Assembly (NCBI GenBank): GCA_905233755.1
Contig: CAJODM010000002.1
Span: 51,289-115,288, forward strand
DNA from: an uncultured Ruminococcus sp.
GTDB taxonomy: Bacteria > Bacillota > Clostridia > Oscillospirales > Acutalibacteraceae
DNA length: 64,000 bases
Direction of reading: 5' to 3'
Part shown: piece after piece, positions 16,500 through 20,607 of the stretch
Layout of the letters: each line of letters begins with the position of its first letter
Numbering within the stretch: position 1 is the first letter of the stretch
Position numbers and translations under genes: made by a program
Notes under the pieces: generated by a model
Seen by the model: only the letters and a program-made list of their open reading frames with translations
The model's database searches: none
Told to the model about the DNA's origin: nothing

Positions 16500-16550
16500 T
16501 AGCTTAGGTTCAGCATAACGGTATTGATGTTCGGCAATACAGAATATCTG

Positions 16551-16579
16551 TTGCAATCACCGTCAAAAGGTGCTATGAT
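16551..16579 (+). promoter_or_regulatory. Promoter of the IclR-family gene
   Basis: TTGCAA-17 nt-TATGAT. Confidence 0.6.
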
Positions 16580-16601
16580 AAAGCGAGAAAGAGGGGAGAA
16601 T

Positions 16602-17354
16602 ATGTCACAAGTCCTGTCGCTTCAGAAAGCGTTTGATATCCTCGACGAGCTCTCGCGCCATGCGGGCGGGATCACGCTCGGCGAGCTGTCATCGCGCCTT
16701 GAATATCCCAAGAGCACCGTGCACGCGCTGCTGTCCACCATGCGCGACCGCGGGGTCGTCAAGCAGCTGCCCTCCGGCGCCTATGACCTCGGGATCAAGC
16801 TGTTCGAGTACGGATGCGTCGTGTCGCGCGGGTTCGATATCTCGCGCATCTCAAAGCCGTATCTCGAGCGGCTGTCGCTGAAGACCGGCTGCGGCGCAGT
16901 CATCTCGACCATCGACGACGCGGGGGTGGTGAGCTTTGACCATGCCAGCGCCCCGTCGGGGGTCCAGATCATGCCCGAGCTCGGCGTTCGTCTGCCGCTG
17001 CACTGTACCTCTCAGGGAAAGCTGATGCTCTCGCTCTTGTCCGACAGCACGGCAACCATGCTCCTGTGTGAGCGCTCGCTGACCGCCTACACCCCTCACA
17101 GCAAGGTCGATCTGTCCGATGTGATTGCAGAGCTGTCGGTAACACGCGAGCGTGGCTATGCGGTCGAGGACGGCGAGTATCGTATCGGGCTGCGGTCGGT
17201 ATCGGCTCCGGTGCGTGACAGCTCCGGCACGGTGCGCTATGCGCTGACGGCTATCGGGTTTCTCAGCCGAACCGGCTCCGAGGAGTTCCGCTATGCGGTC
17301 GAGGCGACGCTGACGGAGGCACAACGGCTGTCAGACGCGCTGAACAGCTTTTGA
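16602..17354 (+). CDS. IclR family transcriptional regulator
   Basis: N-terminal wHTH 'LQKAFDILDELSRHAGGITLGELSSRLEYPKSTVHALLSTM' plus IclR effector domain; RBS gagggga before 16602. Confidence 0.93.
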   Translation: MSQVLSLQKAFDILDELSRHAGGITLGELSSRLEYPKSTVHALLSTMRDRGVVKQLPSGAYDLGIKLFEYGCVVSRGFDISRISKPYLERLSLKTGCGAVISTIDDAGVVSFDHASAPSGVQIMPELGVRLPLHCTSQGKLMLSLLSDSTATMLLCERSLTAYTPHSKVDLSDVIAELSVTRERGYAVEDGEYRIGLRSVSAPVRDSSGTVRYALTAIGFLSRTGSEEFRYAVEATLTEAQRLSDALNSF

Positions 17355-18212: not shown

Positions 18213-18241
18213 TTGAATGCAACAGCCGTTTTTGATATACT
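18213..18241 (+). promoter_or_regulatory. Promoter of the amylase gene
   Basis: TTGAAT-17 nt-TATACT. Confidence 0.6.
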
Positions 18242-18306: not shown

Positions 18307-20562
18307 ATGAATTTCAGACGTACATTATCGATCCTGCTTGCGGTGCTGACCGTTGCCGCGTGCGCCGTTGTTGCGGGCACCGCGGTCGCGTCGGGTGCTG
18401 CCGGCGATGCGGCGGCGACCTCCGCCTATCAGGATATGCTCGCCGATGTATCTGCCGACTATGGGCTGGCCGATACCGTGAACGAAGGCACCATCCTGCA
18501 GGCATGGAACTGGTCGTTCTCGAACATCGAGGCGAATCTTGAGAAGATCGCCGACCAGGGATTCACGACGATCCAGGTTTCTCCGCCCAACGTCCTCAAG
18601 GCGGACACCAAGGGCGTTCATGTCCTCGAGAGCAGCAACCAGAACGGCTGGTGGATGTTCTATCAGCCCGCCGGGTTCCAGATCAACGGTTCATCCGACA
18701 ACAACTCGGCGCTCGGCACCAAGTCCGAGTTCGTCTCCATGTGCTCCAAGGCGCACACCCTCGGGCTGAAGGTCATCGTCGATACCGTTATCAACCACAT
18801 GGGGACCAAGGATAACGAGAGCAGCGAGACCTCGACCGACCCGATGGCGCACGTCACCCCCAAGGCACAGACCTATGAGCCCGCCATCTGGAACGCGAAG
18901 GCATTCCATACCCCGTGGGCCGAGATGACCTATAAGGAAGACCCCAACCAGTTCAGCCAGTACGATTCCACCTATGACCTGACCCGCAACTGCACCTCGC
19001 GTCTGCCCGACCTCGATACCGGCTCCTCGATTGTCCAGAGCGCGATCTATGATTATATGGACGAGCTGATCTCCTCCGGCGCCGACGGGTTCCGGTTCGA
19101 TGCGGCAAAGCATATCGAGACCCCCGACGATATCTCGTCACTTAAGTCCGACTTCTGGACCAACACCCTGCAGAAGGTGCGCACGAACCACCCCGAGAGC
19201 GAGGTTTATGCCTATGGCGAGATCCTAAACACCTGCGGCGTCAACCGTCCCTACTCGATGTACACCAAGCTCTTTGACGTGACCGACTCGGGCTCCTACT
19301 GGAGCATCAGCAACGCCGTCAAGGGCTACGGCGGCGACGCGACGCCCTACTATCCCAACTCCAACTTCACCAAGGCGAACACCATCCTCTGGGATGAGTC
19401 CCACGATACCTATATCGACGGCTCCACCACCGATACCACCGTTGCCCAGCGCAACAAGATCTGGGCGCTGTGCGCCGGCAGAGCCGATATCACCACCGTC
19501 TACTTTGCGCGTCCCGACGACTCTACCTCGACTAACGCGTGCTATAACATCCTGCTCGGCGACATCAAGATGACCGCATGGTCGAACGCCGTCACCAAGG
19601 CGATCAACCAGTTCCACAACTACTTCATCGGCACCTCCGAGTACTGCACCGCCGGCTATAACGGCTATGCCTATATCGAGCGCGGCGACTCGGGTGCGAT
19701 GATCGTCCACCTCGGCAACACCGCCGGCGGCAGCGTCACCGTCCCGAACCATACCCTCAAGAACGGCACCTATATCGACGCTATCACCGGCAATACCTTC
19801 ACCGTATCGGGCGGCTATATCCGCGGCACGGTCGGCTCCTCGGGCGTTGCGTGCATCTACTTTGACAACGATACCGTTCCCACCACCCCGACCTCGACCT
19901 ACAGCGACGACGACGTTGTTCCAACCAAGGACGGCTACTACACCGTTCTCTTCTCGAACTCCAAGAACTGGGACGGCTCGCTTTATCTCTACTATTGGAA
20001 CGACAGCGAGAGCCCCGTTTCGTGGCCGGGGGAGACCATGACCTACTATCAGGTGAACGAGTATAACGAGGGCCAGTATATCGGCTATGTTCCGGTAGCT
20101 TACAACCACTTTATCGTCAGCAACGGCAGCTCCCAGACCACCGACGGCACGATCTCCGGTCATACCGGCGCCTATGCGGGCGATGACGACGGCACCGGCA
20201 AGGCGATCATCGGCTACTTCGAGATCATCACCGTCAAGCCAACCCAACAGCCCTCGAGCTCCGCTCAGCCCGAGTCATCCTCTGCAACAGAGCAGGGTCA
20301 GTCGTCTGACTCTCAGCAGGATCAGTCGTCCGGCTCGTCCGATACGTACATGATCGGCGACGCTGACGGCAACGGCGAGATCGAGATCTCTGACGCGACG
20401 ACCGTTCAGCGGCATCTGGCGCGCCTGATCGCCCTTACCGGCAGCGATCTGCTCGCCGCCGACGCCGATGAGAGCGGCGAGGTCGATGTCTCTGATGCGA
20501 CAGCGATCCAGCGCTGGCTTGCGCGCATCGACCGCAACAACCATATCGGCGACACCAAGTAA
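18307..20562 (+). CDS. Secreted GH13 alpha-amylase with a probable starch-binding module and C-terminal type I-like dockerin
   Basis: Signal peptide; GH13 motifs 'VIVDTVINHMG', 'GFRFDAAKHIE', 'YAYGEIL', 'DESHDTY'; Ser/Gln linker; 'GDADGNGEIEISDATTVQRHLARL...ADADESGEVDVSDATAIQRWLARI' (20350-20559). Confidence 0.94.
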   Translation: MNFRRTLSILLAVLTVAACAVVAGTAVASGAAGDAAATSAYQDMLADVSADYGLADTVNEGTILQAWNWSFSNIEANLEKIADQGFTTIQVSPPNVLKADTKGVHVLESSNQNGWWMFYQPAGFQINGSSDNNSALGTKSEFVSMCSKAHTLGLKVIVDTVINHMGTKDNESSETSTDPMAHVTPKAQTYEPAIWNAKAFHTPWAEMTYKEDPNQFSQYDSTYDLTRNCTSRLPDLDTGSSIVQSAIYDYMDELISSGADGFRFDAAKHIETPDDISSLKSDFWTNTLQKVRTNHPESEVYAYGEILNTCGVNRPYSMYTKLFDVTDSGSYWSISNAVKGYGGDATPYYPNSNFTKANTILWDESHDTYIDGSTTDTTVAQRNKIWALCAGRADITTVYFARPDDSTSTNACYNILLGDIKMTAWSNAVTKAINQFHNYFIGTSEYCTAGYNGYAYIERGDSGAMIVHLGNTAGGSVTVPNHTLKNGTYIDAITGNTFTVSGGYIRGTVGSSGVACIYFDNDTVPTTPTSTYSDDDVVPTKDGYYTVLFSNSKNWDGSLYLYYWNDSESPVSWPGETMTYYQVNEYNEGQYIGYVPVAYNHFIVSNGSSQTTDGTISGHTGAYAGDDDGTGKAIIGYFEIITVKPTQQPSSSAQPESSSATEQGQSSDSQQDQSSGSSDTYMIGDADGNGEIEISDATTVQRHLARLIALTGSDLLAADADESGEVDVSDATAIQRWLARIDRNNHIGDTK

Positions 20563-20576
20563 TCATCCTGTCACTT

Positions 20577-20607
20577 TGCGGGCGGTCGTTCGGCTGCCCG
20601 CATTTTT
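20577..20607 (+). terminator. Intrinsic terminator of the amylase gene
   Basis: TGCGGGC-GGTCGTTCGGCT-GCCCGCA-TTTTT. Confidence 0.85.

Follow-up and report, generated by a model that had tools for sequence, protein, structure and literature searches.

A dockerin-bearing alpha-amylase from an uncultured gut Ruminococcus, very probably a component of an amylosome of the R. bromii type

When an alpha-amylase ends in a dockerin, the question arises of whether the enzyme works on its own or as a subunit of a cohesin-based complex, such as the amylosome of R. bromii reportedly described by Ze et al. in 2015. This question is raised by a 751-residue open reading frame with an ATG start at 18307-20562 (+) of the window, the whole 64,000-nucleotide stretch of DNA analysed here, which comes from an uncultured Ruminococcus sp. 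The genome holding it is a draft of 1.67 Mb in 41 contigs, 99.8% complete, and a sample of 60 genomes drawn from the genus was used for comparison with relatives. The initial annotation had proposed a secreted amylase and possible amylosome component; the gene comprises the following elements:

18213..18241, + strand: sigma-70-like promoter site, TTGAAT-17-TATACT with extended TG (TGn), called by position only
before the amylase ATG: ribosome-binding site AAGGAGG
18307..18399, + strand: putative Sec signal peptide, approximately residues 1-31, read from the sequence without a predictor
18478..19866, + strand: GH13 alpha-amylase domain, AmyE-like, residues 58-520 (Pfam, AmyE alignment)
19945..20145, + strand: CBM26 starch-binding module, residues 547-613 (Pfam)
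20224..20346, + strand: Ser/Gln/Pro linker, approximately residues 640-680 (sequence)
20356..20529, + strand: type I dockerin, two F-hand repeats, residues 684-741 (Pfam, recognition residues)
20577..20602, + strand: intrinsic terminator hairpin, then TTTTT

It is near certain that the product is a GH13 enzyme with a carbohydrate-binding module and a dockerin. In fact, Pfam scored the Alpha-amylase (GH13) family at 66.2 bits (cut-off 22) and Dockerin_1 at 30.2 bits (cut-off 22.9), while D265, E305 and D367 aligned with the catalytic residues of Bacillus subtilis AmyE in the motifs GFRFD, YGE and ESHD. The catalytic motifs, the dockerin, the Ser/Gln linker (in which proline also occurs) and the N-terminus, typical of a Sec signal peptide, had all been recognized initially and were borne out, and the starch-binding module, at first left between CBM25 and CBM26, could be assigned to CBM26 (31.4 bits, cut-off 28.1). 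The reading of the C-terminal repeat as an EF-hand was rejected, since it scored as Dockerin_1 and no EF-hand family matched the ORF in Pfam at E<=1. Both F-hand repeats are present, with the recognition residues I10, S11, Q17, R18 and R22 in one and V10, S11, Q17, R18 and R22 in the other. The best solved relative was R. bromii Amy16 (9qf9), the match spanning the catalytic, CBM26 and dockerin parts.

The genes flanking the amylase are unrelated to it, and its sequence context suggests a monocistronic gene. Scanning for promoters and terminators returned about as many sites as expected in shuffled sequence, so that both calls are made by position. Thus, in the earlier description of an isolated gene, the isolation fits the unrelated neighbours, while the gene's own promoter and terminator are plausible by their position, the scans not rising above shuffled sequence. 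It had also been noted that no cohesin lies nearby, and indeed the cohesins sit on other contigs (C27, C29 and C31). An IclR-family regulator is encoded at window 16524-17354 (+), a short distance upstream of the amylase.

The initial annotation had staked its proposal on cohesins elsewhere in the genome, which very likely encodes them: the Pfam Cohesin family was matched in four places, two of them over the cut-off (45.9 and 24.7 bits), and at least seven cohesin-type domains were counted in total. A model built from the genome's own cohesins (A1) gave seven matches, a count which is partly circular because six of them are the sequences that built the model. The proteins concerned are:

C27:9117-11846: main scaffoldin, 909 aa, with N-terminal CBM26, three cohesins, Ser/Glu linkers and putative C-terminal anchor
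C27:5589-6485: single-cohesin protein with membrane anchor
C29:19177-19926: single-cohesin protein with membrane anchor, a weaker match (21 bits)
C31:3553-4350: adaptor, cohesin-like domain plus dockerin
C31:4448-5485: adaptor, cohesin-like domain plus dockerin

The cohesins of the main scaffoldin are divergent, two of them scoring 21.6-24.7 bits and the third having no Pfam match. The latter, the first in the protein, was modelled with AlphaFold2 at a mean pLDDT of 89, and the two best PDB matches of its predicted fold were the R. bromii Sca5 cohesins 7uvg (E 5.5e-7) and 7urp (1.3e-6). The same two structures were the best matches of an adaptor model (E 2.5e-8 and 4.3e-7), whose C-terminus matched known dockerins in the fold search. 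When the adaptor domains were left out of the model building, the resulting cohesin model missed them in this genome, and they are linked to cohesins through the fold search and through relatives matched by both models (e.g. L143); with a pLDDT of 64, the adaptor call therefore depends on the Foldseek match and on homologues. The scaffoldin also contains a further untyped module, shared with the dockerin amylase on C1, and ends in a hydrophobic segment and basic tail with the motif VKTG, which has not the usual proline of LPXTG; six sortase matches were found in the genome.

The scaffoldin belongs to a cluster of starch-surface genes (G000:C27:3358-11846, L078, - strand), together with an fn3 protein, the anchored single-cohesin protein and two CBM26-like proteins that also carry anchors; of these two, one is paralogous to the Sas20-like dockerin protein on C7 but has an anchor where the latter has its dockerin. 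A near-identical segment (ELKAGDEFKAILYKDGAVDDYWYGSGEG...) occurs at C28:27481-28026 and C27:18688-19719, one copy at a contig end, which suggests repeats that broke the assembly.

With a dockerin enzyme and cohesins in the same genome, the organism very probably builds a starch-digesting surface complex. Many dockerins and few cohesins, together with two anchors of one cohesin each, could also mean that the cohesins anchor single dockerin enzymes and form no true multi-enzyme complex, the display proposed for R. albus in PMC6118326, where R. bromii is put in the same many-dockerin, few-cohesin class. Nevertheless, the putatively anchored three-cohesin scaffoldin and the two adaptors permit several enzymes per anchor, and in sister genomes one protein combines five cohesins followed by a dockerin (L146:265-3246, G355 C116) and another four cohesins followed by a dockerin (L154:1-2670, G326 C18), more cohesins than in any scaffoldin of the window genome. 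Single-enzyme display is thus considered unlikely.

The dockerin complement points to starch as the substrate of such a complex. The genome-wide search advised at the outset returned about 31 dockerin ORFs, five of which are secreted GH13 enzymes, listed here with the R. bromii layouts (PMC5814915 Table 1) that they recall:

C2:250-3411: CBM48-GH13-MucBP-Doc-MucBP-CBM26, pullulanase-like, order as in R. bromii Amy12
C21:8894-13165: CBM48-GH13-MucBP-Doc-CBM26, pullulanase-like, close to R. bromii Amy10
C1:83716-87021: GH13-CBM26-Doc-CBM26, order as in R. bromii Amy16
C11:40884-42989: GH13-X-Doc
window 18307-20562 (+): GH13-CBM26-Doc, order as in R. bromii Amy9, a likeness of layout which does not imply one-to-one orthology with Amy9 or Amy4

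The dockerin of the C11 ORF lies around the Dockerin_1 cut-off of 22.9 bits, with 22.0 by hmmscan and 23.5 in the genome dockerin search. Two further dockerin proteins match known R. bromii proteins by sequence, C7:44657-45772 being a homologue of Sas20 domain 1 (7rft/7raw, E 2e-11) and C14:12749-14347 matching Sas6 (7uwu, E 3.4e-7), the latter adjoining a CBM26-GH13 ORF 12 bp away. CBM26 is carried by 13 ORFs, 10 of which bear a dockerin or cohesin (Fisher p about 2e-15 assuming 1,500 genes, to be read as an order of magnitude only). The remaining dockerin proteins, some with CBM26, are of BspA-type LRR, CAP, CHAP, GH25, CotH, papain-type peptidase, esterase and phosphoesterase types; the BspA-type LRR, CAP, peptidase, GH25 and CotH proteins are no starch enzymes, which counts against an amylosome. 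Among the phosphoesterases, two calcineurin-like ones (C10:21723-24050 and C39:2564-4888) are fused to a dockerin plus CBM26.

The CotH, esterase and peptidase accessory types are also known from fibre-degrading ruminococci, as would be expected if the amylase were merely an accessory enzyme of a cellulosome or of some general plant-fibre complex. This reading is highly improbable and was rejected: no GH5 or GH9 was found in the whole genome and no cellulase or xylanase among the dockerin ORFs, apart from one GH25, every glycoside hydrolase found on a dockerin ORF is a GH13, and CBM26 is concentrated on dockerin and cohesin proteins. The amylosome first proposed is, by the same absence of GH5 and GH9, the five GH13 enzymes among the dockerin ORFs, the R. 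bromii-like layouts and the Sas20 and Sas6 homologues, well supported.

By their recognition residues, the dockerins of the genome fall into at least two groups, one with Glu22 and mostly a bulky residue at 11, found on LRR proteins and the Sas20 homologue, and another with His, Arg or Lys22 and mostly Ser or Thr at 11, found on enzymes; the window dockerin has Ser11/Gln17/Arg18/Arg22 in both repeats. Of six R. bromii cohesins, a single one is bound by the Sas20 dockerin (PMC9112005), which makes it plausible that the Glu22 and His/Arg22 dockerins here would differ in cohesin specificity. At C2:47486-49912, just upstream of the window, two adjoining related dockerin proteins are of the classes Glu22 and His22.

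Relatives within the genus show how widely these parts are kept. Dockerins were present in 60/60 genomes, cohesin-like domains in 59/60 and an AmyE-like amylase (E<=1e-40) in 58/60. All examined orthologues with the C-terminus on the contig keep the dockerin, the two without it (L135 and L137) being cut by a contig end, and the arrangements found were GH13-CBM26-Doc and GH13-Doc-CBM26(n); that the dockerin persists although it has moved within the protein speaks for selection on docking. An orthologue of identical GH13-CBM26-Doc layout, at about 57-59% identity, occurs in Candidatus Ruminococcus equi (L056, probably identical with genome G074), a separate species of the same genus. That the amylase might instead be a lipoprotein or a free secreted enzyme with a vestigial dockerin, as a lipobox-like VAAC at residues 16-19 could hint, is hardly credible, and lipoprotein anchoring was rejected, since the Cys is not a conserved residue among orthologues, the calcium-loop residues are intact in both repeats and all complete orthologues hold the dockerin despite its changed position.

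It is therefore very probable that the amylase sits in an amylosome complex of the R. bromii type in this uncultured gut Ruminococcus. In such a complex it would be a Sec-exported, endo-acting alpha-1,4-amylase subunit, whose C-terminal dockerin, with calcium, would bind a cohesin belonging either to an anchored scaffoldin or to one of the cohesin-dockerin adaptors, and the CBM26 modules of enzyme and scaffoldin would keep the complex attached to starch. At the cell surface, the GH13 domain would cut alpha-1,4 links beside dockerin-bearing pullulanases cutting alpha-1,6 links, and resistant starch may be among the substrates used.

The parallels with R. bromii include dockerin-bearing GH13 amylases and pullulanases with CBM26, CBM48 and MucBP in matching order, a putatively anchored scaffoldin whose cohesins are nearest to those of Sca5 by predicted fold, and Sas20- and Sas6-like dockerin proteins, the Sas6/Amy1-type gene pair on C14 recalling Doc22 and Amy1, which have neighbouring locus tags in R. 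bromii (PMC9112005 Table 1). A further parallel is that no GH5 or GH9 cellulase was found here. Nevertheless, Sca5 comprises two X25 modules and two cohesins whereas the scaffoldin here has CBM26 and three cohesins, and stand-alone cohesin-dockerin adaptors set this genome apart from R. bromii. Furthermore, R. bromii Amy4 carries a cohesin, while no cohesin-bearing amylase was found here, in a draft genome where divergent cohesins may have been missed. The GH13 domains have diverged from R. bromii Amy16 (35-40% identity over the compared region), an identity of only 35% counting against close kinship of the window amylase with Amy16; the Amy16 fragment in the PDB alignment found its best match among the searched genomes at 75%, in G151, and a second search within the genus of G151 gave no closer one. 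The GH13 catalytic domain and triad are shared with B. subtilis AmyE (1bag/1ua7), a free enzyme which, unlike the window amylase, has no dockerin.

Uncultured ruminant-gut bacteria with dockerin-bearing GH13_28/GH13_14 proteins and cohesins in one genome, the Ruminococcus_E rumen MAGs, were already reported in 2022, the accessible part of that report counting domains and holding no scaffoldin layouts (PMC9763041); the genus of the window is not equated here with Ruminococcus_E. The kind of system is therefore known, and the window genome is a well-supported new example of it and not a new system. The present analysis adds an inventory of amylosome parts from a single genome, together with its differences from R. 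bromii.

Beyond this genome, the balance is even for the joint reading that amylosomes are genus-wide in a large uncultured herbivore-gut Ruminococcus clade and no speciality of R. bromii, that their architectures range from single anchors to scaffoldins of four to five cohesins with a dockerin of their own, and that at least two dockerin specificity classes exist, Glu22 on LRR and Sas20-type binding proteins and His/Arg22 on enzymes. Owing to its amylosome, R. bromii counts as a rare keystone organism for the degradation of resistant starch. In this context, a second, nearly complete system, encoded by an uncultured bacterium in a small genome of 1.67 Mb and comprising a starch-binding scaffoldin of three cohesins as well as separate adaptors, offers a comparative case for the essential parts of such complexes; it also suggests that such starch complexes are a common feature of herbivore guts.
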